Made by a program: the position numbers and the translations under genes
Assembly: GCA_003054495.1 (NCBI GenBank)
Contig: CP028514.1
Location: forward strand, 1,651,501 to 1,715,500
From: Carboxydocella thermautotrophica
GTDB taxonomy: Bacteria; Bacillota; GCA-003054495; Carboxydocellales; Carboxydocellaceae
DNA length: 64,000 nt
Direction: 5' to 3'
Shown: piece by piece, positions 13,207-60,182 of the stretch
How positions within the stretch are numbered: position 1 is the stretch's first letter
Layout: each line of letters opens with the position of its first letter
The notes under the pieces: model-generated
What the model saw: only the letters and a program-made list of their open reading frames with translations
Database searches by the model: none
Told to the model about the DNA's origin: nothing

Positions 13207-14514
13207 TTACCCCCGCTTCCAGTGTTCTTTCACTATGCGGAATGATTCTGCGGCAGCGGCAATCGTCCGGTCGATGTCTTCCTCAGTATGAGCCAGAGAA
13301 ACAAAAGCTGCCTCAAACTGGCTGGGTGCCAGGTAAACCCCGCGTTTTAACATCTCCTGGAAAAAGAGGGCAAAGGCTTGTGTATCTGAGGTGCTGGCCG
13401 ACTGGAAGTCCACCACCGGCTGACTGGTAAAGAAGGTACATACCATGGAACCCACCCGATTCTGAGTCAATTCCAGCCCTGCTTCTTTTGCGGCTCGGGC
13501 CATTCCCTCTGCCAGTCTGGCACTCTTTCTTTCCAATTCCTCATATGCTACAGGGGTTAATTGTTCCAGAGTGGCTATCCCGGCAGCCATGGCCAGAGGG
13601 TTACCGGATAGCGTGCCTGCCTGATAGACAGGACCAGCGGGAGCAACCATGGACATAATTTCCTTTTTGCCACCATAAGCTCCTACCGGCAAGCCGCCAC
13701 CAATGACTTTACCGAAACAGGTCAAATCAGGCTCAATGTTGAACAAGCCCTGGGCACAGTGATAATCCACCCTAAAACCGGTCATCACTTCATCAAAGAT
13801 TAGCAGGGTTCCGTAACGCCGGGTCAGTTCCCGCACACCCTCCAGGTAACCAGGCTGAGGCGGTACCACCCCCATATTGCCAGGTACCGGTTCGATGATT
13901 ACCGCCGCAATATCTTTGCCCTCCAGGGCAAAAATCTCCTCCAGCATGGCCAGGTCATTAAACCGGGCGGTAATGGTATTACTGGCAATATTGACTGGCA
14001 CTCCAGGGCTGGTGGGTACTCCCAGGGTGAGAGCCCCGGAACCTGCCTTGATAAGAAGCGAATCCGCATGCCCGTGATAACAACCTTCAAATTTAACGAT
14101 TTTATTGCGACCTGTGTAGGCCCGGGCCAACCGCAAAGCGCTCATAGTAGCTTCCGTACCGGAGTTAACCATCCGCACCATTTCCACAGATGGCACGCGC
14201 TCAATCACCATCCGGGCCAGACGGGTTTCCAGTTCCGTGGGAGCACCAAAGCTGGTGCCCAGATCAACCCATTTATGTAAAGCTTCAGTCACAGCCGGAT
14301 GGCAATGTCCGAGAATCAACGGCCCCCAGGAACCCACATAATCAATATACTCATTGCCATCTACATCATAAATTTTTGACCCCTGTCCCCGGACAAAAAA
14401 GACAGGCTGACCTCCTACTGCTTTAAAAGCCCGGACAGGACTGTTTACTCCACCGGGAATATACTGCTGTGCCTCAGCAAACAATTCGAGCGAGCGGTTA
14501 AAACCCTTATGCAC
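13207..14514 (-). CDS. hemL: Glutamate-1-semialdehyde 2,1-aminomutase
   Basis: A PLP enzyme that converts glutamate-1-semialdehyde to 5-aminolevulinate, the second step of the C5 tetrapyrrole route. It has 435 residues, normal length. Family marks are [49 protein letters not shown] and the PLP lysine in [16 protein letters not shown]. The start is GTG at 14514 with GGGAGG eight bases upstream. It works directly after HemA (encoded at 19044-20369) and belongs to the same collinear block, separated from nirJ2 by a hairpin. Confidence 0.95.
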
Positions 14515-14606: not shown

Positions 14607-15602
14607 TTAGTAGCCTTTGCGCCCATGATAGAGACACCAGGGCTCCTCTGCCATGTAGTCCCCGTTATTGTAGAAAGCTGCCCGGGCCCGGCATCCGCCA
14701 CAGATTTTCTTGTACTTGCACACACCACATCCACCGGAATAGTTGAGGGTACGCAATTCCTGCAGCACCGGATTTTCTGCCCAGATTTTGCTGAAGGGAA
14801 TATCTCTTACATTCCCCATCGGAATATTCAGATAGGCACAGGGCTGCACATCTCCTTTGGGGGAAATGATACAGTAGGATGTTCCGGCCAGACAGCCTCG
14901 GCCAAAACGCAAATCCATGCCCATTTCCTTGGCAATGCGCATGAACTGTGGAGCACAGGTTGGCTTCAGTTCAATATCCACTTCCTGCTGTTTTTTCATG
15001 ATCCGGGTTAGCAGAGCTTCATATTGTTCTGCCCGCAAAGATTCTTCTTCAATGTTAACAGCCCGGCCGGTAGGCACCAGGAAGAAGATATGGTGAGCCA
15101 CCGCCCCCATTCCCACCGCCAGGTCAGTGATCTTTTCCACTTCATCATAGTTCCAGTCTACTACTGTGGTATGGATCTGGAACGGTAAGCCGGCATCCCG
15201 GCAATTTTTCATGCCCTTGAGAGCATCCCGCCAGGCGCCGGGATAGGCTCTGAATTTATCGTGCTTGTCTGCATCAATGCTGTCCAGAGAAATACCCACA
15301 CCCATAGTGCCTACTTCTTTCAGGCGGCGGGCCACTTCCGGAGTTATCAGAGTACCGTTGGTACCAAACACCGGCCGCAGCCCCAGCTTAACGGCATGTT
15401 CCACCAGCTCGAAAATATCCGGCCGCATGAGAGGCTCGCCACCACTGAAAATCATTATCTTAAAGCCAGCTTTAGCTATTTCCTCCAGCAAAGCCTTGCC
15501 TTCTTCGGTGGACAATTCCTCTGAAGCTTTGGCTCCTGCATCCCGGTAGCAATGTTCACAATACATGTTGCATTGATTAGTAGTATTCCAGGAAATAATC
15601 AT
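14607..15602 (-). CDS. nirJ2: Radical SAM haem-synthesis protein NirJ2 (AhbD-like)
   Basis: A 331-residue radical SAM/SPASM protein. The cluster cysteines are C11, C15 and C18 in CNMYCEHC near the N-terminus. FSGGEPLMRPD binds SAM, and C-terminal cysteines (CLAGTSYC, CGVCKYKKICGGC) fit auxiliary iron-sulfur clusters. It matches NirJ2 of Firmicutes, thought to oxidatively decarboxylate iron-coproporphyrin III to haem b (AhbD step) in the siroheme-dependent route. The start at 15602 has GAAGGAGGG in front and overlaps the hemB stop as TAATG. AhbA, AhbB and the NirJ1/AhbC partner are not in this window. Confidence 0.85.
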   Translation of the reverse strand: MIISWNTTNQCNMYCEHCYRDAGAKASEELSTEEGKALLEEIAKAGFKIMIFSGGEPLMRPDIFELVEHAVKLGLRPVFGTNGTLITPEVARRLKEVGTMGVGISLDSIDADKHDKFRAYPGAWRDALKGMKNCRDAGLPFQIHTTVVDWNYDEVEKITDLAVGMGAVAHHIFFLVPTGRAVNIEEESLRAEQYEALLTRIMKKQQEVDIELKPTCAPQFMRIAKEMGMDLRFGRGCLAGTSYCIISPKGDVQPCAYLNIPMGNVRDIPFSKIWAENPVLQELRTLNYSGGCGVCKYKKICGGCRARAAFYNNGDYMAEEPWCLYHGRKGY

Positions 15603-16582
15603 TAATAGCCCTCCTTCAACCACTTCGCTACATCCAGGGCATGATAGGTCAGGATTATATCAGCCCCGGCCCGTTTAAAGCCAAGCATCGTTTCCAGCAC
15701 AATCCGTTTTTCATCTATCCAGCCCAGACGGGCCGCAGCCTTGATCATGGCATATTCACCGCTGACATTATAGGCTGCCACTGGTACCACCACTGCATCC
15801 TTGACCTGACGGATTATATCCATGTAAGCCAGAGCCGGCTTGACCATGACAATATCGGCTCCTTCTTCCAGATCAAGGGCAACCTCTTTTAATGCTTCCC
15901 GGCTATTGGCAGGATCCATCTGATAAGCCTTGCGATCTCCGAATTGCGGTGCCGATTCGGCTACCTCCCGAAAAGGGCCATAATAAGCAGAAGCATATTT
16001 AACCGCATAGGACATGATGGCAACATCCTGATAGCCATGGTGGTCCAGCATGGTGCGAATGGCTGCCACCCTGCCGTCCATCATATCCGACGGAGCCACG
16101 ATGTCCGCCCCGGCCCGGGCATGGCTGAGAGCTGTGCGGGCCAGTAACTCCAGGGTAGGATCATTGGCCACTTCCTGGCCCTGAAGCAGGCCACAATGCC
16201 CATGGCTGGTATATTCACAGAGGCAAACATCGGTAATCACCAGCAGCTGCGGTACTGTCTTTTTGATTTCCCGCACAGCTCTTTGCACTGCCTCATCCTC
16301 GGCCCAGGCACTGCTGCCTGTTTCATCCTTGTAGGCGGGAATACCAAACAGGATAACTGCCGGGATCCCCAGTTCAGCTGCCTTCTGCGCTTCTTCCACT
16401 GCCAGATCCACTGAAAGCTGGGCTACCCCTGGCATGGATTCAATTTCCTTGCGAAAGCCCTGGCCCTGAGTAACAAAAAGAGGATAAACCAGGTCTTCGA
16501 CCCGCAAATGATTTTCCCGCACCAGTCGCCGCATGGTTTCATTACGCCTTAGCCGCCGCGGGCGGTTAACCGGAAAACCCAT
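15602..16582 (-). CDS. hemB: Delta-aminolevulinic acid dehydratase (porphobilinogen synthase)
   Basis: Condenses two 5-aminolevulinates to porphobilinogen. From the ATG at 16582 (GGAGGGAAGGA upstream) the protein has 326 residues, a normal length. Motifs are the zinc cysteines in [14 protein letters not shown], the first active lysine in [16 protein letters not shown], and the Schiff-base lysine in [10 protein letters not shown], followed by [13 protein letters not shown]. An in-frame ATG 21 bases upstream overlaps the cobA/hemD stop and has no ribosome binding site. It sits between cobA/hemD and nirJ2 with overlapping or near-touching ends, so translational coupling is likely. Confidence 0.95.
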
Positions 16583-16602
16583 ATTCCTTCCCTCCGTCTC
16601 CA

Positions 16603-18117
16603 TTATACCATACTTTCCACAATTGCTGTGACCAAACCGTCAATGGTGTATTCCCGGGCCTCCACGGTTATCGTCAGTCCCAGCTCCCTGGCGGTCTGGG
16701 AAGTAATAGGCCCTATGGAAGCCAGTTTAACAGTTTGCAACAGCTCCTGGTAATCTTCTCCTAGCAATTTAATAAAGTTCTTCACTGTTGATGAGCTGGT
16801 AAAGGTAACCCAGGAGATGGTCTTCTCCTGCAACAGACGCCGTAACAGGGCTTTATCCCCGGAACCAGCCACAGTCCGGTAGGCATCCACTTCTGTAACC
16901 TCAGCCCCCAGCTTGCGCAATTCTTCCGGTAACACCTTTCTGGCTATATCCGCCCGGGGCAATAGTACCCTTTTCCCGGCCAGGTCAGTTTGCTTCAGAA
17001 CCTCAACAATGGCTTCAGCCCGGTATTCCTCCGGGATAAAGGAACAACGAATACCCCGCCTTTCAATCTCATCCCTGGTTTTAGGACCGATGGCGCAAAT
17101 CTCGATACCAGCCAGTTCGCGTACATCCTTGCCCTGCTGCCAGAGACGGCGGAAAAAGCGCTCAACCCCATTCACACTGGTAAAAATGATATAGTTGTAA
17201 CTCTGCAGCTCATTAATCGCCTGATCCAGGGGACCAAAATCCAGCGGGTCGGTAATTTCAATGGCAGGAAACTCCCAGACTTCGGCACCCAGTTCTTCCA
17301 GTTTGCTGGTCAGGCTGCTGGCCTGTTCTCTTGCTCGGGTCACCACAATCCGCTGACCGAAGAGGGGTTTAGCTTCATACCAGCGCAGCTTATCCCGCAT
17401 TGTCACTACTTCTCCCACTACAATAGTAGCCGGATGTTTGACCCCAGCAGCCCTGGCCTTTTCCACGATATCAGCCAGGGTAGCCGTTACCGTTATTTGT
17501 TCCGGCCTGGTCCCCCAGCGAATGATGGCAACCGGGGTCTCTGGTGAACGGCCATGTTCAATGAGTTTCTCCACGATTAAGGGCAAGTTGGCCATACCCA
17601 TCAATATTACCAGGGTACCTGCCCCGGTAGCTAAATGTTCCCATCTGATTTGACTGTTTCCCTTTTCCGGATCCTCATTGCCGGTAATAATAGCCAGACT
17701 GGCCGATAGTTCCCGATGAGTGACAGGTATCCCGGCGTAGGCCGGTACCGCAATAGCAGAAGTAATCCCTGGCACAATTTCAAAACCAATCCCATGCTCC
17801 ACCAGGGCCTCGGCCTCCTCGCCCCCCCTTCCAAAAACGAAGGGGTCACCCCCCTTCAGGCGGGTGACAATTTTCCCTGCCAGGGCCTTTTCCACCAGTA
17901 AAGCATTGATTTCCTGCTGTCGAAAGGTATGCTTGTCCGGTTCCTTTCCGGCAAAGATCAGTTCAGCATCTTTACGGGCATAAGTCAGAAGTTTGGGACT
18001 GGCCAACCGGTCATAAACAATAACATCTGCCTTGCTGATACACTCCAGTCCCCGTAGAGTGATCAGTTTCGGATCTCCCGGGCCCGCACCGACCAGATAA
18101 ACAAAACCTTTTTGCAT
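16603..18117 (-). CDS. cobA-hemD: Fused uroporphyrinogen-III C-methyltransferase / uroporphyrinogen-III synthase
   Basis: A bifunctional 504-residue enzyme. Residues 1-245 are the SUMT (CobA) domain: [31 protein letters not shown] and [20 protein letters not shown]. It methylates uroporphyrinogen III twice to precorrin-2. Residues 250-504 are HemD, which cyclises hydroxymethylbilane to uroporphyrinogen III. Such fusions are common in clostridia. Its stop touches hemB and its start follows hemC by no gap, within the tight sirC-hemA-hemC-cobA/hemD-hemB-nirJ2 block. The fusion commits flux toward siroheme and cobalamin rather than coproporphyrin. Confidence 0.94.
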
Positions 18118-19047
18118 CTAACTCAGCTCCCTTACCTCCGCCAGTATCCGATCAGCTCCTTCAGCCAGCATGAGCTCGGCCAGTCTTTCCCCCAGCTCTT
18201 CCGCCGCTTCAGGATTGCCATTTATCTGTTTTCTGATTAATTTCTGTCCATCCAGGGAAGCTACCACACCCTGTAAAATCAGCTGTTCACCCTGTAAAAC
18301 GCCATAAGCTCCAATCGGAATTTGACAACCGCCTTCTAATTTGCGCAGGAAAGCCCTTTCTGCCAGGATAGCCTTAGCAGCAGCTCTGTCATTAAGCGGT
18401 CGTAACAGCTCTTTAATCTCTTCATCATTTTCCCTGATTTCAATCCCAATCGACCCCTGCCCTACCGCAGGCAGGCTGATCTCAAAAGGTATATACTGGG
18501 TGATACGTTCCTGCCAGCCCAGGCGTAAAACCCCGGCTGCTGCCAGGATCATACCATCCAGCTGCTGCTCCTCCATTTTGCGAAAGCGGGTAGCCAGATT
18601 GCCCCGCATATCCACTATTTGCAAATCAGGCCGGTAAGCCAGAAGCTGGGCCCGTCTTCTCAGGCTAGATGTAGCCACTTTTGCCCCCTGAGGAAGGGTG
18701 GCAAGGGTATAACCCTTAGGACTGATCAGCACATCGCCGGGGTTTTCCCGGACACAGATGGCTCCCAGGGCCAAACCGTCAGGCAAACGGGTCGGCAGGT
18801 CCTTCATGCTATGCACCGCCATGTCTATTTTCCCTGCCAGCATAGCAACTTCCAGTTCCTTGGTAAAAAGCCCTTTGTCACCGATTTTGGCCAGTGCCAC
18901 ATCCAGAATTTTATCTCCCTGGGTTTTCATGGGTACGATCTCCAGGCCCAGGTCGGGGTACAATTTTCTCAACTGGGTTACCACCCATTCCGTTTGCCAC
19001 ATGGCCAGGGCGCTGTCCCGGGTGCCAACCCTTACCGTTTTGCTCAT
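18118..19047 (-). CDS. hemC: Porphobilinogen deaminase (hydroxymethylbilane synthase)
   Basis: Polymerises four porphobilinogens to hydroxymethylbilane. It has 309 residues. Marks are the N-terminal [13 protein letters not shown], the ligand loop [28 protein letters not shown], and the dipyrromethane cofactor cysteine in [17 protein letters not shown] precedes the ATG, and the start overlaps the hemA stop by four bases (ATGA type). Its product is the substrate of the HemD domain encoded next. Confidence 0.95.
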
Positions 19048-20369
19048 ACCAATTCCTCCACTTCTTCTGCTGCCATGGGTTTGCCTGGTTTTATTCTCTG
19101 TCCTTCTATCTGTAAATCAAACAGGTTTTGCAAAATTTCGGTATAGAGATGACCGTGACTGGTCTGGGCATAAGCTTTAAGATTAACAATTGGCCGATGT
19201 AAAATACTGTTAACGATGCTATGGGCCAGAGCCTGGATAATATTGCGCTCTCGTTCCGTTAAATCGCCCAGTTTATTAAACGCCTTTTCCAGCTCCCGTT
19301 GTTTGATTTCTTCCCCAAACTGTTTCAGAGCTACAATGGTTGGCACCACAAACTGGGTATTTAACCAGCTGAAAAACTCCTTGATTTCTTCATCCACTAT
19401 TTTCTGGGCCTTGACGGCCTCTTTTTTCCGTTCCTGTAAATTGCGATCTACCACATTTTGCAAATCATCAATATCGAAGAGGGTTACTCCCTTAATGGTG
19501 GCCACTTCCGGATCGATGTCCCGAGGTACGGCGATATCAATCAAAAATATGGGCCGGTATTGTCTGGTTTGCATAACTTTTTGCACAATTTCCGGCAAAA
19601 TAATGGCATGGCGGGCGGCGGTAGCACTGATTACAATATCAGCCTGAATCAGGCATTCCACTAATTGATCGAATTTCACTGCTTTACCGCCAAATTTCTC
19701 AGCCAGCTCCACTGCTTTATCATAAGAGCGGTTGGAAACCAGCACACTGGTAACTCCGTTGGCCACCAGGTGTTTTGCCGTCAGCTCACTCATTTTCCCG
19801 GCGCCAATGATCAGAATGGCCTTGCCTTCCAGGGTGCCAAACAGCTGGCGAGCCAGCTCTACTGCAGCATAGCTGATAGAAACAGCATTTTTGTCGATTT
19901 CCGTCTCGGTTCTTACCCGTTTGCCAACAGCAATAGCCTTATGAAACAGAGTGTTAATGATTTTATTGGTGCTTTCCGCCGCACTGGCAATTTGATAGGC
20001 CTGGCGCACCTGGCCTAGAATCTGGGTCTCACCTAGTATCATCGAATCCAGTCCGGATGCAACTCGAAACAGATGATGGACACAGTCATAGAGGGTATGA
20101 ATATAGAGGAAGTTATCAATTTCACATTCTTCTTCATGCAAGCATTCCATCAGAAAAGTTTTTATGGATTTTAAACCCTGGGTCATATCTGTGCAAGCCG
20201 CATAAATCTCCGTACGGTTACAAGTGGATAGTAGTACACACCCATCAATGGCCGGATATTGTTTCAAGGTTTGCAAGGCCTCAGGCAATTGGCTTTCAGT
20301 AAAAGCCAGTTTTTCTCTGATTTCCACCGGAGCAGTCTTATGATTGAGGCCAACAGTCACCAAAAACAT
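19044..20369 (-). CDS. hemA: Glutamyl-tRNA reductase
   Basis: First committed step of the C5 pathway: NADPH-dependent reduction of glutamyl-tRNA to glutamate-1-semialdehyde. The 441 residues contain [16 protein letters not shown] at the N-terminus, the catalytic cysteine in [11 protein letters not shown] (about C50), the nucleotide-binding [15 protein letters not shown] and a C-terminal dimerisation helix. GGAGCGG precedes the ATG at 20369, which lies inside the end of sirC, a 32-base overlap. This suggests strong translational coupling. Confidence 0.95.
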
Positions 20370-20979
20370 TTTTTATCCGCTCCTTTACCTTCTCCATTTC
20401 TCCCCGGACCAGATCCTCCCAGAATCCCTCCGCCAGTAAACCCTCCATAATCCTCTGGCGTTCCCCTGGGTCAGGAATTCTGGCAAGTAAAATTTGCCTG
20501 AGTTCACCGAGCAAATCATTGATCTCTCCATACTCAGGTCCTATAGATCGCGCCAGATGATCCCTTAATTTGCGGGCAAACACCGGACTCTGTCCTCCCG
20601 TGGAGACAGCCAGCTGCAAATGGCCCCGCCTCAGAACTGCCGGCAGATAGAAGTCCCCCCGTTCCGGGTCATCAACCACATTGACCCAGATCTTCCTTTG
20701 CTGGCACTCCCGGGCAATCCTGGCATTAACCGCAGCATCATCTGTGGCTGCATAGACCAGATGTGCCTGTTCCACATCATCGGGTTGAAAAAGGCGCCGG
20801 TACCACATTACGCGACCGGCGCCGGCCCATCCTTCAATTCTTTCTGTTACCTCAGGGCTGACTACCAGTACCCCTGCTCCTGCCTGGAGCAAGCCAGCTA
20901 TTTTCCGTTCTGCCACCTGGCCTCCGCCAACTACCAGACATTTCTTGCCGTCCAGACGGAGAAAAATTGGATACAGCAC
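20338..20979 (-). CDS. Precorrin-2 dehydrogenase / sirohydrochlorin ferrochelatase-like protein
   Basis: A 213-residue protein matching the CysG N-terminal / Met8 / SirC family. A Rossmann NAD site [20 protein letters not shown] sits near residue 16, and [22 protein letters not shown] and [15 protein letters not shown] follow. It oxidises precorrin-2 to sirohydrochlorin and may also insert iron. It is first in the tight haem-gene run, behind a sigma-H-like promoter. With CobA/HemD it yields siroheme, the entry to the NirJ-type haem route. Whether this copy keeps chelatase activity cannot be told by eye. Confidence 0.9.
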
Positions 20980-21015: not shown

Positions 21016-21042
21016 ATTCGTCATATTTCGTAAAAATCCTGC
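21016..21042 (-). promoter_or_regulatory. Sigma-H-type promoter before the sirC-hemA haem run
   Basis: On the minus strand: -35 GCAGGATTT (21034-21042), an 11-base spacer, -10 GACGAAT (21016-21022), 37 bases before the sirC-like start. It is a near-perfect match. It lies just after the ccsA stop, so the haem genes can be transcribed without resB-ccsA. Confidence 0.75.
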
Positions 21043-23268: not shown

Positions 23269-23295
23269 ATTCTCCCCTCTTCCTAATAATCCTGT
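23269..23295 (-). promoter_or_regulatory. Sigma-H-type promoter before resB-ccsA-haem operon
   Basis: On the minus strand: -35 ACAGGATTA (23287-23295), an 11-base spacer, -10 GGAGAAT (23269-23275). It lies 41 bases before the chosen resB start. Confidence 0.65.
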
Positions 23296-23315
23296 CGAAA
23301 AAAAATTGAAATTTT

Positions 23316-23331
23316 TGTGACTTGCTTCACA
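23316..23331. promoter_or_regulatory. CRP/FNR-family operator, perfect TGTGA-N6-TCACA palindrome
   Basis: TGTGA (23316-23320), six bases, TCACA (23327-23331). Its centre is about 61 bases upstream of the start point expected from the sigma-H-like promoter, the classical class I activator position. The regulator could be any CRP/FNR-family protein; redox or CO sensing is only an inference. Confidence 0.65.
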
Positions 23332-23334
23332 CAC

Positions 23335-23363
23335 GAAAAATATACCCAGCTTCAGCCGGGTAT
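23335..23363 (-). terminator. Terminator after the triheme Fn3 gene
   Basis: On the minus strand ATACCCGGCT and AGCTGGGTAT (23342-23363) form the stem, followed by ATTTTTC. Confidence 0.75.
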
Positions 23364-24553
23364 CAGGGTTTGGGTCTGTGGGGATTATGGCAGGCACAGC
23401 AATTGGAATCAAGGCCATGTCCCATTTGGGGCGCATCAAAAAAGAGCACAACACTGCCACTGCCATCATGGCAGGACTGACAGAGGCCGGCAATAGCCTG
23501 ATTAATTATGAGCTTGCTTCCACCGGCTGCATGGGCAGAATGACACAAGGCACAGGGAGCAGTGGAAAAAAGGTAATTGCCGTGAGGGCTAACAAAAGGA
23601 GAGTTAATTGTAGTAAACACCCAGGAAGTGAAACCTGCTGCCAGACCAGAGGTACTCTTGATACCTGAGTTTATTACCACTTTATAGGATGTGTTAGCAG
23701 ACCAGGGTTGAGCCGGGGTAAAATACATGGTGCGAGTTTTCTCATCCCAGGCATATTTGCCCGGTAATTTTACACCGGAAAAATTAACAGTTACATAGAA
23801 GTTGCTGGGTGTGATAGTTGCTGGATCCAGCCAATCATTCCAGACTACTTCTACCCGCTCATTTCTTTTTACCCCTGTCCCGGTTGGTTTTTTACTTGTG
23901 ACCATTGGCGGCGAGCTGTTCGCCTGTGTAGTAACTGTTACTATTTCACCAGGGGGAGAGATTTGCCCCTGTACGACCTGCTGAACATAAAAATTATAAG
24001 TCGTAAGGGGCATTAAGTCTGTAACTGTCGTTCCAGTTGTAGTCACATTCTTGAGCCAGTTGAAGTAATTCCCCTCTTTTGCCATATAGACCTGATATAG
24101 AACATCATCCCCGGTTATTCCATTCCAGGACAACTCTACGGTATTTGGTCCGGTAGCGACAGCTGTTAGACCGGTTGGTGGCTCTGGTGTGCTACCCACC
24201 TGTACTGTATCCGGCTGGTTATCATATATATCTTCACTAACAGCCACAATCCTTTCCTCCCCAGCAGTCGTCTCCGGGAGTGGAGGCGGCGGTGGAGTCT
24301 CACCTGTACCTGCTGGATTGGTTTGCTCTGTGGCTCCTGAATCAGCCACAACCGGTTGGGACTCTGTGTTATCTTCAGCAACAGGATTACCTGCAGATGT
24401 CTCTGCTGTTTGGCTCGCTGGTTGCTCCACCTGTGGTTGTTCAGGCATTTCTGCTGGTAAACTCAATAACTCATCTGCCCAGGGTACCAGCCCGCTCCAG
24501 TTTACAGCAGTCAAAATTGTAGCCAGCATAAATATCAATAACCAGCGCCGCAT
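23363..24553 (-). CDS. Secreted triheme cytochrome with Fn3 and Ig-like domains
   Basis: A 396-residue exported protein. A signal peptide (residues 1-22) is followed by a low-complexity P/T/E/Q linker (about 25-110). An Fn3 domain comes next (PPTGLTAVATGPNTVELSW..., about 120-210), then a bacterial Ig-like domain (about 215-315). A C-terminal module of 75 residues has three haem sites, CALCH, CQSCH and CCACH, in the doubled-CXXCH style (CHSAHAAGG...CHDGSG...CHNPHRP). The start at 24553 follows AGGGGGATGGAAA; an upstream TTG is unlikely. It looks like a wall-spanning spacer that presents a small haem head. It is a single-gene unit between the B12-rSAM and resB genes. Confidence 0.85.
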   Translation of the reverse strand: MRRWLLIFMLATILTAVNWSGLVPWADELLSLPAEMPEQPQVEQPASQTAETSAGNPVAEDNTESQPVVADSGATEQTNPAGTGETPPPPPLPETTAGEERIVAVSEDIYDNQPDTVQVGSTPEPPTGLTAVATGPNTVELSWNGITGDDVLYQVYMAKEGNYFNWLKNVTTTGTTVTDLMPLTTYNFYVQQVVQGQISPPGEIVTVTTQANSSPPMVTSKKPTGTGVKRNERVEVVWNDWLDPATITPSNFYVTVNFSGVKLPGKYAWDEKTRTMYFTPAQPWSANTSYKVVINSGIKSTSGLAAGFTSWVFTTINSPFVSPHGNYLFSTAPCALCHSAHAAGGSKLIINQAIAGLCQSCHDGSGSVVLFFDAPQMGHGLDSNCCACHNPHRPKP

Positions 24554-24653
24554 TTTCCATCCCCCTGAGGATTGTGCTTTCTGTTGCAATTATACTCTTT
24601 CGGGGATGAGAAAATTGTCGCAAACAGTCAAAAATCTTTTATTTTTTTTCGAC

Positions 24654-30529: not shown

Positions 30530-33500
30530 TTAACTGCCACTGGTTCGGGAAGTTCTGGTGGTATGACTGCCACAGGTTCCCTGTAACAAGTAGCACCCGT
30601 TCTTAGAACCAATGTTAGATGGATAGTATTCGGCAATTGCCCGGCCGCGAATGAACTTGCCATACCCGTTCCAGGTAAAACCGTGCATATAGCCTTTAAC
30701 ACTCGGGTCACCATGGCATTCATAACAACCATTGCTGGTTTTGTGATCCCCTTTACTATGATTGGAGAACCGTGAACCAGTACTTGTAGTGTAACCATAG
30801 GATGTCGGCTTATGGCACAAGGTACAGTGCTTTACAATCAGCGGCGCACTGCTAACTGCAGTATCCGTACTGAGCTTCAGGTTATATGGATTGCTGACAT
30901 CAGTACCAGTATGGGTATAGTGGCAATCAGAGCACAAAACTTTTCCCTGCCCAGCCGGAGGAGTCCGGTTCAGGATATTGAGACCATAAGTAGTAAGAGT
31001 GGTAGAGTTAACATAAGTATTGGTCCCTTTTACCCCGAACACACCGTGGTGCGAATCATGAGTGGTCTGGAAGCGACTGCGTACATCCGACCAGCCCGTG
31101 GGCAAGGTGGTCTTGCTGCCAAAAGTACTGTGACACTTGATACATACTTCATACTGGAAGTCAGCTACCTGTTTGAAGTTACCATTGACGTCAATCCCCG
31201 AAGCTTTCAGGTTGTCCCGAACGAAAGTGTCTTTTGTCTTCAGGATGTGCGTATTATGACAGTCTACACACTGTACTGTCTTGGAGTTATCATCATAGTT
31301 CATCTGAGCCGGGTCCTGGCCGGGCACATGGCGGGCAATGTAATTAGGATCTTTAACCGTATGCCCTACCGTGCCATCGAACTGACCAGCCACATTCTTG
31401 CTTGAGGGGCCTGTACCATCATGACAGGTGAAACACAGGTCTGAAGCTGGTTTCAAGGTCGAGCTCTGGTAACCTGAGCCATGGGGATCATGGCAGTTAT
31501 AACAGGCACCTGCTGCATTACTGGCCTGGGTATAATTACCACCCTCTGTTCCGCCCGGCCATTTGGCATTGGCATTAGAGCCATGGGAGCTGACAGAGAA
31601 CAGGCTCTGACCGGCTATCTTCACAGCCGGATCCACCAGTTCGGTATCTGGAATGGTGTTATCATTATTATTGGTACCACCTTTCCAGTAGACGGTCGGA
31701 TAACCAGGAGCAGCAGCTTCGTACCAGTAAACCCCTGTTCCATAAACCTTTTTCACCAGGGCCACACTGTCATGGCAATTATAGCAGAGCTCGTTATTGT
31801 CCGGATTTTTCAACAACTGCTTCGGATAAGGATTGCCCGGATTGCTCGGGTCCTCCTTGCCATGAGGGCTGTGACAGTTCATACAGTTACCGGGAACAAA
31901 CATGGCCGATTGCCCTGTGGCTGAATCATACCACTTAGCTTTGCTGGCATGTTCCGAGGCATTATAGGCTGCCTTACCCCGGAACCAGTAAGTTTGAGCA
32001 ATCACTTCTGGCTTATCATGGCACCAGAAACAAACACTGTTCTTCAAACTATTACCATTGCTGTCTACAGCATCGGTATTCATGGGCAATTTCAACATGC
32101 TGCCATAATCGGTGCCATGGGGATCATGGCAGTTGGTGCATTCACTGGGTGCAGATTCGTTATCCCAGCGGACCAACAAGTTATTTTTATTGCCATGGGC
32201 AGTTTTGTTGTAAATGGTAAAACCATTCCAGGCACCAAAACTTACAGCAGCATGACATCCTTCACAGAGAGCATTGACACTGATAAAGGTATCAGCACCC
32301 ACCGTAAAGCGATAGCTATCCAGGGTCGAAGCTCTGGTCACACTCACGCCATCTCCGCCATGCTCTGTCGGCACAAACTTACCGTGCGGAGTATGACAGT
32401 TAAAGCATTTACCAGCATAAGTCGCTTTATCGGCTGCACTATTGGGATCCCTGGTGCCCCCGGTTCCATAGCTATTCGGGAAAACTATGGGCGTTCCGGA
32501 AGGCGAATCTGTGGTCCGGCTGTGCGCCGACATTTCAAAGGTACGGCGACCGGAATATTTGTAATTGCTGGAGGCGTTGGTGTGACAATCAAAGCACAGT
32601 TCATTATCCTTGGCTTTCTTCAGCAAGCTGGGATACTGAGAACCATGGGGCACATGGCACTTGGTACAGTTACCATAGTAAATACTGCCATCACTAAAGG
32701 TGTCCACCGGTACATCCACGTTATGTTTGCTACTGTTATAAGATGTACCGATTACAGGCGCCCCAGGCGGTGAGCCGGTGCCGTCGTGACAGGTCATACA
32801 CAGGGCTCGCTCCAGTGATGCCATGGGATCAACCAGAGTCAAAGCTGTTACCTTGGTACTGAAACTGGATTCGTTCCCCTCCAGGTCAAAGGCTGTAACG
32901 TAGTAACTATAACTGGTGGTACCTTTGAGATAGAGGTCCGTCCAGGTAGTACCGGTAGTGGAACCCACCTTCAAAGGTTGACTGAACCCGGGCACAATCC
33001 GGTAGATGTTATAGCCCACTACTCCATCAGCAGCGCTAGCCGGAGCCCAGGTTAACTCTACGGCCATACTGCCGGTGACAATATCCTTGATGGGAGTAGC
33101 ATTAACCCCTGCCGGAGGAGGCGGAGCCACATTATCCACCGGCTCAGCAGCAGTTGTTGTCGTTACAGCAGCACCGGTTGAAGCATTGCCACTCAAATCA
33201 AAGGCACTGACACGATACCAGTACTGGGTATTTCCTTTTAAGCCGCTATCAGTAAAGCTCAAGTTTGCCGCATCCACCGAGCCTACCTTGATGTAGTTAG
33301 TCCCATCACTGCTGCGATAGATACTATAGCCAGCCACATCATCGGCAGGAGTGGACGCCGACCAGTTTACAACTACACTGTTGCTGCCAGGCTGCAAGCT
33401 GCTAATCGTCGGCGCTGAAGGCGGAGTAGTATCAACGGCATAATTCTTCAGCAGCTTGTATTCATTGACCAACGTGGTGCCGCCGGTGTTGCGTACCCGG

Positions 33501-36500
33501 ATATACAAAGAATACCAGTCTCCGGCATTCAGGCCACTGGGCCAGGTCACCTGGAAGCGGATATAGTTACCGTTATAAGCTACGTTGCTGGCAGTCAAAG
33601 TGGCTGCTGTAGTTCCATCCATTCTGTATAGAGTTGCAGTAGTGGTGCCGATAGTACCATTGACATTGGCCGAAACTTCACCATAAACAACCTGCCCGGC
33701 CTGGAACTCCAGCTTTTCTGTCGTATAGCCACTATCTTCATATGTGCGATAATGTTCGGTAGTTGCTGCAATTTCCACCGCCTCATAAGCCCTAATTGTA
33801 CCTGCTCCGCTTGAGACCTCAACCAGGAAATAGTAGAGACCCGGGGTCGAACGGGTAAAGGTCACCTCATAAGTGTAAGGTGCGCTAGTACTGGTCTGGC
33901 TCATAGTATAAGTTGCTAACTGCCCGCCAGTCTTACTGTAAACAATTACCCGCCGCGTAGTAGCATTATTAATGGTACTGGTAGTCACCTTAACCCGGAT
34001 ATTAGTGCCAGCCGGGAAAATATTGGTGCGACCGTTCTGATAGTCAAAGAATTCGACCACATTGCTACCCGACTTGTAAAGTCCATTGGTTACAGGTATA
34101 GTTGCAGTTGGTGTAGTGACCGAGGCAACATTGCTATAACCGGATTCATTACCAGTGCCGCCTAAATCCAGGGTTTTATCGATTGCCGTAACTTTATACC
34201 AGTAGGTTGTATTGGGCAAAATGCCATTATTCAAGCCCGGTGCATCCACAAAACTGGTAGTACCGCTAAAGCCAATGCGGCTAAAGTTAGTGCCATCTGT
34301 ACTGCGATAGATATAATATCCTTTCACCCCGGAGGCGTCAGTACTGCGCGACCAGGTCAGACTGATCCGGGCACTATTCAGGGCTACCGCCTTCAAGTCA
34401 GCAGGCGCACTGGGAGCAGTTGTATCCGAAGTATAGGCTGGTGATACGTTCACGGTTGTATTCAGCCAGGTACTATTACCTGCTCTGTCAAAGGCCTTAA
34501 TCTTATAAGTAAATGGTGGTGTGCCTCTTACTGCGCCATCATAGAAGGACACTGTACCAGTAGTGCTGGTGTTATTGATCACCCCAATAGCATTGGCATC
34601 GGTGAAATCATTACGGTAGATATAGTATCCAAAAATGTCACTGGAATCAGATGGAGTCCAGCTGACCTTCACCAGACTCTTGGCCAGCGCCTGGGCACTT
34701 AAACCGCTGGGAGCATTAGGTGGTGTTACATCACCACTGGCACCAGTGCGGTCTTTGATCAAATCCGCTTTCGGGTTATGGGAATGAGGTTTATGACAAT
34801 TGGTCATACAGGTATTGGTATCAGGTGACAGCGCATCAGTTATTTTATGGTAGGACACAATCGTACTGGTTGTCGTCCTGCCACCTTGCCCGTCAGGCCA
34901 GGTGTTTTGAGTTCCATCCCACAAACCGGCTAACTGGTCTATATTGGGCGCTAAAGCGCTGGACCCGCCATGACATTTGTAACAATCCTTGTTGGACCCC
35001 ACCGGCCGCGGGTCATGGGGGTTATGACAGGCCATACAGTTAGCGGTGCTTACTGCCGTATGCTCACTCAAAGTAATACCACTCTTGGGCCCTACCAGGG
35101 GCAATTCAGCAAGATCAATCTGGCCGCCAGGCAGATCGGGATCAACCCAGCGCACAAAATCCGCACTGGCATCCTGGTTATTGGGCAAATGGCAAACCGT
35201 ACAAAAAGGACGGCGGCTGTCATTGCTGCCAATATTGCTGGGGAAAGTGCGTAACTGGTTGGTATCCCCATTAGTATAGATGGCTTCACTGACATCAGCA
35301 TCCCGCAGGTACTTTGTATTGGAAGTTCCATGCGGGAAATGACAATCGGCACATTTCAGCTTCTTGGTTGGGTCGCTTTTTAGATAATGGCCATAAGCCT
35401 GATACAATGTCTTGATATTGCTAATCGTAGCCCCATTACCATCAGTATGCAGACCATCATGACATTGATAACACAGAGTATCGCCATTGGCCCACTTCAA
35501 CAAAGGCTTATAATCAGAACCGTGAGGATTATGGCACTTGGTACAGTTATTGCCGAAACCACTGCCGTCACTGTAGGAGTGTTCCTGTTTCACGTAATCA
35601 TGGGGCTTACCCGCATATTTCAGCATGTCAATCCGCGGCTGTGGTCCCGGTGCCCCGTTTGTATCATGGCAATTGAAGCACAGGGTCTTTTCATCTACCG
35701 CCTTGATATTATTGGAACGCGGATTATGCGGGTGAGCCAGGTGACATTTGGTCATACAATCATTGGTATCAGCTGTGTTGGGATCATAAATCTTATGACG
35801 GCTGATTTTCCCTGCACTCAAAGTTCCTTCTTGCCCCATCAATGCCTCGATATTATAGGCCTCACCCCGTTTGCCATGGCAGAGATAGCAATCGGCATTA
35901 GAGCCTGTAGCCGGCCAGGGCTTATGAGGATCATGACAGATATCGCATTTATCCGTTGATGTACTGCTATGAGAAGCAATGCTGGCCGGCAACGGTTTGA
36001 TAGTGATTTTATAGCTGTTAGCCGGCTGGTCACTGGAAGTCACTTTGATAGTATTACCGGTATAGTAGACACGGCTGGGCTGGTCTGAAGTCGGGTGACA
36101 GACCAGGCAAAACTCCCTGACGTTAAAACTACTGCCGGTCTTATTGGTCGGCCAGGCCGTTCCGGCAAACTGCAAGGTACCGTATTTGTCCCGATCCCAG
36201 AGATACTTGGCGTTGGTCGTACCATGAGGGCTATGACATTCGGTACATAGCAGTTTTTTGGTAGAATCTACAGACTTGATAAAATGGCCGGCAGAAGTCT
36301 CAGCATAATAGAGCTTCCGAATATCCTGTTTGGCCGGATAACCATCATGGCAATCCAGACAGGCATTTACCTTACCAACATCAGTATCAGCATCAATCGC
36401 ATGAGTATCGGTAGTATCAATATCCCGCCGCAGCAAACGCACGTTAGTCGAAGCATGGTGTTCATGGCAGACCAGACAGGGCTGATCCTTGCTTACCCCA

Positions 36501-38908
36501 TCAGCAGTAGTGCCATATTTACTGTTGCTCCGGCTCAAGCTGGCATGGGGCTTGCCGGTAAAGTTGGCCTGATAATCCTCGGTAATATGCCTGGTAGTAC
36601 CATGACAGGTAAAACACCAGTCGCGATACTCGGTTGTAGCAAAATTGGGCACACTGACCGGGTCCGGCGTAACCGCTGTCCCTGAGACAGGGTCGGTCCA
36701 GGCGACCGGGTTTTTCAAACCATAGGGGTTAGAACCCGTATGTTTGGTATGATCCGGTTCGTGGCAGGTATCACAGGATACCTTTTTGCCACTGGATGTA
36801 CCCGCATAAATAATGGGATGGGATGAGTTTTTGTCAAATTCATTCTGGTCATGGCAGGCTGCACAGTTCAGAGCAGGACCTGCATAAGGATTACGCAAAT
36901 ATCCTTTTGGCGTATGGTTAGCTTTACAATTCAAATAACAGGCATAGCCGGTGGCATTGCCCTGGCTGTCGGTACCGGTAGCATAAAAGGCCAGACGGCC
37001 ATTGGCCGGACTCACCGCATTGAGGAGATAAGACCAGTCAAAACTGATATTGACCGGGTTATTCAAATTCCAGTTAGAGTTATTTACTTTGGTTCCGTTC
37101 TTATAGGCATTGGTATTACTTAGATCAAAATACTGGTTACTACCTGTATGAGGATCATGACATGTCCGACAAGAGAGTTTATAACTATTCACGTGCCAGT
37201 GATAGTTGCGACCATTGCCATTGCCGAAACGGCTACCTACAATGGGGTTACTGCCATTATTCCAGTAATAACGGTAGTCATGGCATTTAAAACACAACTC
37301 ATTACGGTTATGAGTTACTGCCGTCGGATAAGGTTTGTTAACAAAAGGTGCTGTAATCATAAATTGATATTTTGAGCCATGGGGTTCATGGCACATCATA
37401 CAGCCATTCCAGGCCGCAAACTTCTGGTCATGGATTGAACCTGTAAAAGCATTACTGGAATTATAGATCTTGTTTTGCGAACTATATTGGTAATAATTAA
37501 AACCTTTACTAACATGACAGTTAATACAAAGATTGGCCTTATTCTCCCAGCGCAAAAGCGGGTAATTAGAGGAACCATGAGGTTTATGGCAATTCAGACA
37601 GGCGATCATGGTTCCGGTTGCAGATTCGCCAGTAATGGGCTCTCGCTCCACCATGGCGATCCCATCAGTCTGGGGGCTGCTGGTCGGTGCCACCGGATTC
37701 AGGTTAGCATCAACGCTGGCATATTGCATTAAACTATTGGGGTCATTGCCAATATTATGAACGGAATTAGCAAAAAAAGTCTGATGATCAATTCCAAAAG
37801 GCCTGGGTAGATCCGAAGGAGCTCCGTGACAGGTCCAGCAGACATCATTGCCACTATAATTAGGGCCTTTGAGCGTCCCGTTAACATTGCGCTGGGCTGC
37901 CAGCAAGCGAATGGAGCCGTTTTTCTTTCCCGTTACTGCACTGGTAGAGTCTGTGTTGCTGAAGTGGGGATTGTGACAATCCTGACAAAAGGTTTTGCCC
38001 TCCGGCACCTTATGGTGGGAGGTATTAACCTGAACATCAAACTGGCTTTTGACATCATAAATTGAAGCTGTACCGTCATGGCAGACATAACAGGTCTCAG
38101 CAACAGTGTCTTTCAAGACCAGCTGATAACCATGGGCTGAATGGGTAGAATGACACAGTTTGCAAAGGTCCTGCCGCCCCGGGTCAGTAAACTTGCCATG
38201 GGGCTGCAGAGTTGGTGTAGCGACAACCTTCACAGTAACTGCCTGTTGAGCATAAGCCAGATTGCCGGTACTATCGCGGCCTATCCCCTGCACATAAATA
38301 GTATAAACCCCTTGAGTAGCCGGGGGAATCAGTTTAACCTTAAATACTTCATCATGAAGTTTACGGTTACGGTCTCCGGGAGTTCCATTGCTACCATCAT
38401 CCAATGTAACCCCCTGCTGATTAACCGGAGTAGAATTAGCAGGAAAATCAGTAACAAACATAAAAGGACTATACAAAGGCGCATTTTTGGCTGTATCCTG
38501 TTTGGCAACAGCCCAGGGGGTCAGATCAGATTGGCCATTATCACTCCAGGGAGTATCAGGATTAGCCACTTGCCACTGGTAAGTAGCAGGTACCTGGACG
38601 GCACCTGCTACAGTTCCGTTTAATCCGTAGCCCAATCCTGTGACCCGATAAGTAATCTCAAGCGCCTGACCAGCAGTAAGGCTGACTTCAGACACTGCTC
38701 CCTTACTTGTTCCGTTGACAGATACATCCAGGAGCGTCACAGTTCCCCCGCCCCTGGTATCATGACAGGAATTACAATAATTCTTCTCACTGGCGGTATC
38801 CAGTTTGCCATTCGGCCAGGCCCAGGCCCAGCTGATAAAGGCGAGCCAGCACCCGACGGTCAGGAGGAATATATTAAATTTTCCAGTAGACAAGACTGTT
38901 TTTTTCAT
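30530..38908 (-). CDS. Giant secreted multihaem cytochrome with four Fn3 domains (42 CXXCH + 3 unusual sites)
   Basis: A 2792-residue exported protein. Signal peptide 1-30 (ending WAWAWP). Haem domain A (about 44-1385) holds 26 CXXCH sites plus CX3CK (CYLNCK) and two CX3CH sites (CMTKCH, CMTNCH). Then come about 640 residues of beta-sandwich: four Fn3 domains (each with PP/AP-x-AP and GYYIYR or GYNIYR) around a 200-residue non-Fn3 segment. Haem domain B (about 2040-2700) has 16 CXXCH sites. Many haems are in CHNPHGS or CHDPHGT doubled motifs. The C-terminus ends in a C-x6-C-G-x-H tail. It has no sortase or S-layer anchor. AAGGAGG precedes the ATG. It likely conducts electrons across or beyond the wall. 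It is cotranscribed with a 6-haem protein and ResB/CcsA pairs 3 and 2. Confidence 0.92.
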   Translation of the reverse strand: MKKTVLSTGKFNIFLLTVGCWLAFISWAWAWPNGKLDTASEKNYCNSCHDTRGGGTVTLLDVSVNGTSKGAVSEVSLTAGQALEITYRVTGLGYGLNGTVAGAVQVPATYQWQVANPDTPWSDNGQSDLTPWAVAKQDTAKNAPLYSPFMFVTDFPANSTPVNQQGVTLDDGSNGTPGDRNRKLHDEVFKVKLIPPATQGVYTIYVQGIGRDSTGNLAYAQQAVTVKVVATPTLQPHGKFTDPGRQDLCKLCHSTHSAHGYQLVLKDTVAETCYVCHDGTASIYDVKSQFDVQVNTSHHKVPEGKTFCQDCHNPHFSNTDSTSAVTGKKNGSIRLLAAQRNVNGTLKGPNYSGNDVCWTCHGAPSDLPRPFGIDHQTFFANSVHNIGNDPNSLMQYASVDANLNPVAPTSSPQTDGIAMVEREPITGESATGTMIACLNCHKPHGSSNYPLLRWENKANLCINCHVSKGFNYYQYSSQNKIYNSSNAFTGSIHDQKFAAWNGCMMCHEPHGSKYQFMITAPFVNKPYPTAVTHNRNELCFKCHDYRYYWNNGSNPIVGSRFGNGNGRNYHWHVNSYKLSCRTCHDPHTGSNQYFDLSNTNAYKNGTKVNNSNWNLNNPVNISFDWSYLLNAVSPANGRLAFYATGTDSQGNATGYACYLNCKANHTPKGYLRNPYAGPALNCAACHDQNEFDKNSSHPIIYAGTSSGKKVSCDTCHEPDHTKHTGSNPYGLKNPVAWTDPVSGTAVTPDPVSVPNFATTEYRDWCFTCHGTTRHITEDYQANFTGKPHASLSRSNSKYGTTADGVSKDQPCLVCHEHHASTNVRLLRRDIDTTDTHAIDADTDVGKVNACLDCHDGYPAKQDIRKLYYAETSAGHFIKSVDSTKKLLCTECHSPHGTTNAKYLWDRDKYGTLQFAGTAWPTNKTGSSFNVREFCLVCHPTSDQPSRVYYTGNTIKVTSSDQPANSYKITIKPLPASIASHSSTSTDKCDICHDPHKPWPATGSNADCYLCHGKRGEAYNIEALMGQEGTLSAGKISRHKIYDPNTADTNDCMTKCHLAHPHNPRSNNIKAVDEKTLCFNCHDTNGAPGPQPRIDMLKYAGKPHDYVKQEHSYSDGSGFGNNCTKCHNPHGSDYKPLLKWANGDTLCYQCHDGLHTDGNGATISNIKTLYQAYGHYLKSDPTKKLKCADCHFPHGTSNTKYLRDADVSEAIYTNGDTNQLRTFPSNIGSNDSRRPFCTVCHLPNNQDASADFVRWVDPDLPGGQIDLAELPLVGPKSGITLSEHTAVSTANCMACHNPHDPRPVGSNKDCYKCHGGSSALAPNIDQLAGLWDGTQNTWPDGQGGRTTTSTIVSYHKITDALSPDTNTCMTNCHKPHSHNPKADLIKDRTGASGDVTPPNAPSGLSAQALAKSLVKVSWTPSDSSDIFGYYIYRNDFTDANAIGVINNTSTTGTVSFYDGAVRGTPPFTYKIKAFDRAGNSTWLNTTVNVSPAYTSDTTAPSAPADLKAVALNSARISLTWSRSTDASGVKGYYIYRSTDGTNFSRIGFSGTTSFVDAPGLNNGILPNTTYWYKVTAIDKTLDLGGTGNESGYSNVASVTTPTATIPVTNGLYKSGSNVVEFFDYQNGRTNIFPAGTNIRVKVTTSTINNATTRRVIVYSKTGGQLATYTMSQTSTSAPYTYEVTFTRSTPGLYYFLVEVSSGAGTIRAYEAVEIAATTEHYRTYEDSGYTTEKLEFQAGQVVYGEVSANVNGTIGTTTATLYRMDGTTAATLTASNVAYNGNYIRFQVTWPSGLNAGDWYSLYIRVRNTGGTTLVNEYKLLKNYAVDTTPPSAPTISSLQPGSNSVVVNWSASTPADDVAGYSIYRSSDGTNYIKVGSVDAANLSFTDSGLKGNTQYWYRVSAFDLSGNASTGAAVTTTTAAEPVDNVAPPPPAGVNATPIKDIVTGSMAVELTWAPASAADGVVGYNIYRIVPGFSQPLKVGSTTGTTWTDLYLKGTTSYSYYVTAFDLEGNESSFSTKVTALTLVDPMASLERALCMTCHDGTGSPPGAPVIGTSYNSSKHNVDVPVDTFSDGSIYYGNCTKCHVPHGSQYPSLLKKAKDNELCFDCHTNASSNYKYSGRRTFEMSAHSRTTDSPSGTPIVFPNSYGTGGTRDPNSAADKATYAGKCFNCHTPHGKFVPTEHGGDGVSVTRASTLDSYRFTVGADTFISVNALCEGCHAAVSFGAWNGFTIYNKTAHGNKNNLLVRWDNESAPSECTNCHDPHGTDYGSMLKLPMNTDAVDSNGNSLKNSVCFWCHDKPEVIAQTYWFRGKAAYNASEHASKAKWYDSATGQSAMFVPGNCMNCHSPHGKEDPSNPGNPYPKQLLKNPDNNELCYNCHDSVALVKKVYGTGVYWYEAAAPGYPTVYWKGGTNNNDNTIPDTELVDPAVKIAGQSLFSVSSHGSNANAKWPGGTEGGNYTQASNAAGACYNCHDPHGSGYQSSTLKPASDLCFTCHDGTGPSSKNVAGQFDGTVGHTVKDPNYIARHVPGQDPAQMNYDDNSKTVQCVDCHNTHILKTKDTFVRDNLKASGIDVNGNFKQVADFQYEVCIKCHSTFGSKTTLPTGWSDVRSRFQTTHDSHHGVFGVKGTNTYVNSTTLTTYGLNILNRTPPAGQGKVLCSDCHYTHTGTDVSNPYNLKLSTDTAVSSAPLIVKHCTLCHKPTSYGYTTSTGSRFSNHSKGDHKTSNGCYECHGDPSVKGYMHGFTWNGYGKFIRGRAIAEYYPSNIGSKNGCYLLQGTCGSHTTRTSRTSGS

Positions 38909-41201: not shown

Positions 41202-41228
41202 ATTCGACATAAACTTTACTTTTCCTGC
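41202..41228 (-). promoter_or_regulatory. Sigma-H-type promoter before the NHL1-hexahaem-giant cytochrome operon
   Basis: On the minus strand: -35 GCAGGAAAA (41220-41228), an 11-base spacer, -10 GTCGAAT (41202-41208), 51 bases before the NHL1 start. Confidence 0.75.
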
Positions 41229-49610: not shown

Positions 49611-49678
49611 CCGTTCACCTCCTCTGCTAGTGATGTTATTCACATTCAAACCTTCTCACCTCCTTCTCAATATTTTTT

Positions 49679-49705
49679 ATTCGACATGTGTTAATAAATT
49701 CCTGC
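49679..49705 (-). promoter_or_regulatory. Sigma-H-type promoter before the 1767-residue cytochrome
   Basis: On the minus strand: -35 GCAGGAATT (49697-49705), an 11-base spacer, -10 GTCGAAT (49679-49685). This is the best match of the set. Confidence 0.78.
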
Positions 49706-52270: not shown

Positions 52271-52298
52271 ATTCTATCATTTTTTATAAAATTCCTGC
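52271..52298 (-). promoter_or_regulatory. Sigma-H-type promoter before the 829-residue cytochrome
   Basis: On the minus strand: -35 GCAGGAATT (52290-52298), a 12-base spacer, -10 ATAGAAT (52271-52277), 33 bases before the start codon. Confidence 0.68.
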
Positions 52299-59074: not shown

Positions 59075-59098
59075 GGACGACGAATATATTCGCCGTCC
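59075..59098. promoter_or_regulatory. 24-bp near-perfect palindrome over a promoter -10
   Basis: Half-sites GGACGACGAATA and TATTCGCCGTCC are inverted copies with one mismatch in 12. The palindrome covers the -10 of the sigma-H-like promoter of the NapC-type pair and has no T-run on the minus strand. It is an operator candidate, or else a hairpin ending the polyprenyl synthase mRNA. Confidence 0.45.
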
Positions 59099-59115
59099 TT
59101 CTCTACAATTCCTCT
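59088..59115 (-). promoter_or_regulatory. Sigma-H-type promoter before the NapC-type pair
   Basis: On the minus strand: -35 AGAGGAATT (59107-59115), a 12-base spacer, -10 GGCGAAT (59088-59094), 57 bases before the 10-haem protein start. Confidence 0.55.
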
Positions 59116-60155: not shown

Positions 60156-60182
60156 ATTCAATCTCCATCAAAAAATTCCTGC
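60156..60182 (-). promoter_or_regulatory. Sigma-H-type promoter before the polyprenyl synthase
   Basis: On the minus strand: -35 GCAGGAATT (60174-60182), an 11-base spacer, -10 ATTGAAT (60156-60162), 54 bases before the chosen start. Confidence 0.65.

Follow-up and report, generated by a model that had tools for sequence, protein, structure and literature searches.

There is a perfect CRP-type palindrome upstream of resB in Carboxydocella thermautotrophica. Taken together, the data lead us to propose, with about an even chance of being right, that it is the site of a Crp2/HcpR-like regulator giving class I help to RNA polymerase, probably in its sigma-H form, and that resB-ccsA (perhaps with the haem genes) would be raised in this way under nitrosative or redox stress. 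The site, its rarity, a regulator with CRP-type residues, the same element elsewhere and a sigma-H-type promoter were all computed from the DNA. The palindrome most likely ties the cytochrome-assembly and haem genes to a stress-response regulon. That regulon would be of a known kind, with resB as a probable new target; what would be novel is the proposed combination of CRP and sigma-H.

The palindrome is at 23316-23331 of the window (the whole 64,000-nucleotide stretch that was analysed), where TGTGACTTGCTTCACA reads as a perfect TGTGA-N6-TCACA, as the first-pass annotation had it; a pattern scan gives the same result. It lies in the 116 bp gap that separates resB, on the minus strand, from a multihaem cytochrome gene (23363-24589, minus strand; three CxxCH motifs), just beyond the intrinsic terminator at which the cytochrome gene ends (minus strand, 23337-23363 with its T tract, stem 23363-23342). 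Read along the minus strand, the order is terminator, palindrome TGTGAAGCAAGTCACA (23331-23316), an A/T-rich tract recognized by eye (23299-23315), the promoter AGGATTA-N11-GGAGAAT (23293-23269) and resB. Folding of the gap RNA gives the terminator and a five-pair hairpin formed by the palindrome itself, and nothing else. The flanking w positions of wTGTGAnnnnnnTCACAw are satisfied on one side only.

A rival explanation, which we consider rather unlikely, is that the palindrome is a chance occurrence or a relic and that resB is driven by its sigma-H (or sigma-A) promoter together with an UP-like A/T tract, with no CRP-type control. A/T-rich tracts upstream of promoters can act as UP elements, and this one could give a strong promoter without any activator. 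Base counts alone also predict about 2.6 perfect copies of the palindrome genome-wide (arithmetic), although mostly in coding DNA. Against this, the 2.74 Mb genome has five perfect copies and none of the reversed control pattern, and over 61 genomes (C. thermautotrophica and 60 relatives) the comparison is 149 to 50. All five copies are intergenic, each in the gap upstream of a gene. The number of perfect sites expected by chance in the resB gap is roughly 1e-4 (arithmetic scaled from whole-window shuffles), and a perfect copy would be expected only about 0.01 times upstream of any of the 97 sigma-H promoters examined (arithmetic). Palindromes with no more than one mismatch are also frequent within the window (18, of which 17 are imperfect, against 2.01 expected from whole-window shuffles), but this enrichment was rejected and carries no weight because 13 of the 17 imperfect matches encode CxxCH haem-binding motifs in cytochrome genes.

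The sigma-H consensus, RnAGGAwWW/RnnGAAT, has an AGGA-type -35 and a GAAT -10 that are 11-12 nt apart. A sigma-H-like -10 had been proposed at 23269-23275, and GGAGAAT is indeed present there (minus strand, 23275-23269), with AGGATTA as its matching element 11 nt further upstream, so that the whole promoter spans 23269-23293 in the pattern scan; the genome also has a sigH that scores over the cut-off. The same -10 allows a sigma-A-type reading, TCGACA-N18-GAGAAT (minus strand, 23269-23298), with 9 of 12 matches. There are 131 AGGAWWW-N11/12-RNNGAAT elements in the genome and 3 in the reversed control, a control that is biased because the reversed pattern contains TAA. Window shuffles and a base-count expectation were therefore also used: there are 7 such elements within the window where shuffles predict 0.35, and about 10 would be expected genome-wide (arithmetic). 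The elements are intergenic in 67 of the 97 cases examined. The AGGA...GAAT elements and their spacing are similar to those of Clostridium difficile sigma-H promoters such as CD0142 (PMC7438776, as far as the available part of that paper goes), whereas the apparent regulon, by pattern only, is much larger here and includes cytochrome and haem genes. Judged from these patterns, sigma-H seems to be behind much of the respiratory gene expression in C. thermautotrophica.

In class I CRP promoters, of which E. coli lac is an example, TGTGA-N6-TCACA is centred near -61.5. Class I contact is made through the alpha C-terminal domain and need not depend on the bound sigma factor, so the combination of a CRP-type protein with sigma-H is mechanistically reasonable. 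The first-pass annotation had put the centre of the resB palindrome near -61, and this is compatible with our measurement: the centre is at -61.5 if the start point is set 7 bases after GAAT. With that start point, the resB promoter would have the lac-type palindrome near the lac position; it differs in being probably a sigma-H promoter and in having a regulator without a cAMP-type pocket. The centre would otherwise lie at -60.5 to -64.5, since most promoter sequences in the C. difficile sigma-H table, in the part available, end roughly 6-10 nt after GAAT (PMC7438776; the ends being read as start points). No good hexamer lies at the class II distance from the palindrome: the sequence there is CAGGAT, with three mismatches. 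Within 120 bp upstream of the start point, a palindrome with no more than one mismatch occurs at two of the 97 sigma-H promoters: resB (perfect, -61.5) and a carbonic-anhydrase-family gene (-58.5). The latter, a one-mismatch palindrome before a lipoprotein gene (L170:1464-1570), is possibly a second case of the same architecture. No other perfect site has the class I arrangement, and the histogram of spacings has no peak at 41 nt.

The genes downstream, all on the minus strand, are resB (PF05140; 21894-23246, or from 23228, where the ribosome-binding sequence is better by eye) and the cytochrome c biogenesis gene ccsA/ccsB (TIGR03144, PF01578; 21057-21890). They are followed by a set of haem genes: a precorrin-2 dehydrogenase of the CysG N-terminal type (20338-20979), hemA (19044-20369), hemC (18118-19047), a cobA-hemD fusion (16603-18117), hemB (15602-16603), a nirJ2-type radical SAM gene (14607-15623, TIGR04055 over cut-off) and hemL (13207-14514). 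Between ccsA and the haem genes the pattern scan found a second sigma-H-type promoter, a perfect one (21016-21040, minus strand). The haem genes may therefore not need the resB promoter at all, and the cluster may consist of two transcription units split at this point. The nirJ2-type gene stands beside hemB in a cluster that also has precorrin-2 dehydrogenase and cobA, an arrangement suggestive of a sirohaem-based route to haem. An hemE gene (named by eye, L163) also has a sigma-H-type promoter.

The first-pass annotation had advised a genome scan for CRP/FNR genes as well as for the palindrome. Three full CRP/FNR-type proteins came out of searches that used PF13545 and the best CRP-like protein as queries; their recognition helices are SRETATR (L003), TRQTVSV (L004, CooA-like, encoded before a cooS gene) and SRVIVVQ (L005). 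The CRP recognition residues R-E-x3-R are present only in L003, a protein of 229 aa (G000:C1:656775-657464). According to the R180/E181 rule for CRP-type TGTGA recognition, described in the available part of PMC1274295, L003 alone of the three should read TGTGA. SRET or TRET followed by R is kept in all aligned orthologues (13 relatives; L061 was left out of the alignment), and among 12 aligned sequences R194, E195, T196 and R199 do not vary. A perfect palindrome begins 2 nt past the stop codon of the regulator gene; it precedes cooS, which scores far above the cut-off for a CO dehydrogenase catalytic subunit, and is at -64.5 of the cooS TATAAT promoter (44 nt). The genome paper, in the part available, reports a lack of CooA sites in the neighbourhood of the other CO dehydrogenase genes (PMC6085454), and from its position L003 is a candidate regulator of this cooS, a CO dehydrogenase gene without a CooA site. 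The locus runs crp, cooS, a MoxR-type ATPase gene and a VWA-like gene (L089:12776-17861; the last two named by eye), and the order crp then MoxR-type gene recurs in relatives.

A phosphate-binding Arg in the nucleotide pocket is a mark of cAMP-CRP. In the nearest solved structures of the CRP/FNR family, which we take to be actinobacterial GlxR/CRP, this Arg is in GPRTSSA; in L003 it is replaced by Tyr (GPYPASA) and in the orthologues by Tyr or Phe, so cAMP is unlikely to be the signal. The regulator is best described as Crp2/HcpR-like, with a predicted role in nitrosative or redox stress.

Of the other four perfect copies of the palindrome, one lies before a hemerythrin-domain gene, one before a gene for a 63-aa ferredoxin, opposite a hydrogenase operon, one before a methyltransferase gene with a CGGC/PCP_red gene behind it, and one before cooS. 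At the hemerythrin, ferredoxin and methyltransferase promoters the palindrome is exactly 21 nt from TATAAT or TAAAAT, which therefore places its centre at -41.5, the class II position. That all three of these best-placed sites are class II counts in favour of the resB palindrome being a chance occurrence or relic. In the same genome hcp is preceded by the element at two mismatches, and a gene of no Pfam family is preceded by a one-mismatch element that is also found before its 59%-identical homologue in a relative (G043). Over the 61 genomes, TGTGA-N6-TCACA-N21-TATAAT with no more than one mismatch occurs 46 times compared with 4 control matches. A TATAAT-like hexamer is at exactly 21 nt from 12 of 34 perfect palindromes (the next commonest distance is found 3 times). 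The joint element is present in 12 of the 19 relatives that have a close orthologue of the regulator and in 7 of the 41 that do not (Fisher p 6e-4). Likewise, the palindrome plus -10 element separates the two groups of genomes (Mann-Whitney p 1.2e-4), whereas counts of the perfect palindrome alone do not (Mann-Whitney p 0.14).

Downstream of the element, hcp is found at 7 of the 28 loci read (L123-L150), all 7 by TIGR01703; the other loci include 4Fe-4S ferredoxins, CGGC/PCP_red proteins, one multihaem cytochrome and several unrelated or no clear genes. The element thus stands before hcp and further redox genes in many Firmicutes. In Caldanaerobacter subterraneus (L309) the regulator orthologue, a perfect palindrome and hcp are side by side, and among 80 loci around regulator homologues hcp is beside the regulator there and, by motif scan, at L300. 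The L309 arrangement matches the crp2-hcp regulation predicted in the available part of PMC1274295. The hcp-linked element, its co-occurrence with the orthologue and the crp2-hcp adjacency therefore argue for a Crp2/HcpR-type regulon. The shared targets hcp, hemerythrin, ferredoxins and a CO dehydrogenase point to a regulon of nitrosative or redox stress rather than of CO control. The redox- or CO-responsive CRP/FNR control that the first-pass annotation had inferred is thus supported in part: a CRP-type operator, a CRP-family gene with a matching helix, a sigma-H-type promoter and a spacing that would allow class I activation speak for it, but CO control finds no support, as both the CooA helix and the CooA consensus differ.

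The closest parallel is Crp2 of Thermoanaerobacter (Caldanaerobacter) tengcongensis, with its CRP-like palindrome, adjacent regulator gene and hcp target (PMC1274295). The L309 regulator is 42% identical to that of C. thermautotrophica. The differences are that hcp is elsewhere in C. thermautotrophica, where cooS follows the regulator gene, and that a resB-ccsA-haem target is absent from the description of Crp2 in the available part of PMC1274295. Desulfovibrio HcpR, as described in the same part of that paper, is alike in its consensus wTGTGAnnnnnnTCACAw, its hcp and ferredoxin-like targets and the R180/E181 rule. The match in synteny is to Crp2. In the literature searched, no paper mentions both Carboxydocella and HcpR, and a search on SigH, cytochrome c biogenesis and heme in Clostridia gave a match on Bacteroidetes only, going by the part of that source available.

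Conservation of the palindrome before resB in relatives, which had been suggested as a check, was not found. ResB homologues were present in 34 of 119 genomes, C. thermautotrophica included, and the 14 best other upstream regions were examined; a ResB search over the genome contigs found no relative. None of the 14 resB upstream regions, which come from order- and phylum-level relatives, has a usable palindrome, and the sole one-mismatch match (G001) falls within a cytochrome gene, about 430 nt upstream. In 3 of the 14 regions, two of them from one genus, there are sigma-H-like elements (spacer of 10-13 allowed). In these two (L031 and L032) there is also a two-mismatch palindrome further upstream of resB. 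AGTGATAATATTGACA, common to two genomes of one genus, was not counted because the region is generally alike. Of 398 genomes of the phylum, 2 have the palindrome combined with the sigma-H promoter in this arrangement, both of them C. thermautotrophica. The second genome of the species has 2 differences in 3,063 bases near resB (99.93% identical), none in the gap, and is therefore uninformative on conservation. A palindrome confined to the species before resB again favours a chance or relic origin. The pattern may also mean that sigma-H control is older and that the palindrome is a recent addition in this lineage.

We regard it as quite improbable that the palindrome is a site for the NADH/NAD+-sensing repressor Rex. 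The rex-hemACD case of Streptomyces is a precedent for Rex control, the Rex consensus shares TTGTGA...TTCACA with the resB site, and the genome has two rex genes. However, the resB site has two mismatches to TTGTKAA-N4-TTMACAA, and the genome shows no enrichment of the Rex motif (47 matches to 38 in the control at no more than two mismatches, none perfect). In addition, the other perfect palindromes lack the A and T flanking TGTGA/TCACA on at least one side. A CO-sensing CooA site seems very improbable. The organism oxidizes CO (PMC6085454) and has the CooA-like gene L004, but the consensus in the available part of that paper, TGTCR-N6-YGACR, differs in both half-sites and the recognition helix is TRQTVSV, not SRETATR. 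FNR was rejected, as the site is without TTGAT-N4-ATCAA and the 229-aa regulator without N-terminal cysteines; so was cAMP-CRP, for want of the pocket Arg.

For control by the Crp2/HcpR-like regulator, we infer binding, activation rather than repression, the choice of sigma factor, a contact of the class I type and the signal. The CRP-family protein L003 would bind the resB palindrome about six turns of the helix before the start point, with the centre near -61.5. From there it would aid RNA polymerase, probably the sigma-H form, most likely by touching the alpha C-terminal domain. The outcome would be a start of transcription at resB-ccsA, perhaps continuing into the haem genes behind, so that nitrosative or redox stress would raise cytochrome c maturation and haem supply in step with hcp, hemerythrin, ferredoxin and one CO dehydrogenase. 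The full scheme, in which a Crp2/HcpR-like activator acting as class I on a sigma-H promoter couples both cytochrome c maturation and haem synthesis to this stress, in a carboxydotroph whose sigma-H has widened to respiratory genes, is put forward tentatively and is in our view doubtful. If it is true, one small regulon joins stress defence with cytochrome assembly and haem supply and takes in a CO dehydrogenase for which no CooA site is reported, and does so in bacteria whose multihaem cytochromes are very large. The resB promoter would further provide a testable case of a CRP-type activator aiding a sporulation-type sigma factor. As the regulator gene is named, the way is open to the direct design of gel shifts and deletions.

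Finally, besides the CooA-like gene, the genome (two contigs) has many multihaem cytochromes and several genes for CO dehydrogenases; for strain 41T the available part of PMC6085454 describes a chromosome and a plasmid, with six CODH genes and with multihaem cytochromes numbering 30. Within the window there is another CO dehydrogenase catalytic-subunit gene at the start (1285-3240, minus strand, TIGR01702), and two open frames of 2792 and 1780 residues have 42 and 49 CxxCH motifs, respectively (30530-38908 and 44307-49649, minus strand). Further sigma-H-type promoters, all on the minus strand, precede genes of the multihaem region at 41202-41226, 49679-49703, 52271-52296, 59088-59113 and 60156-60180.
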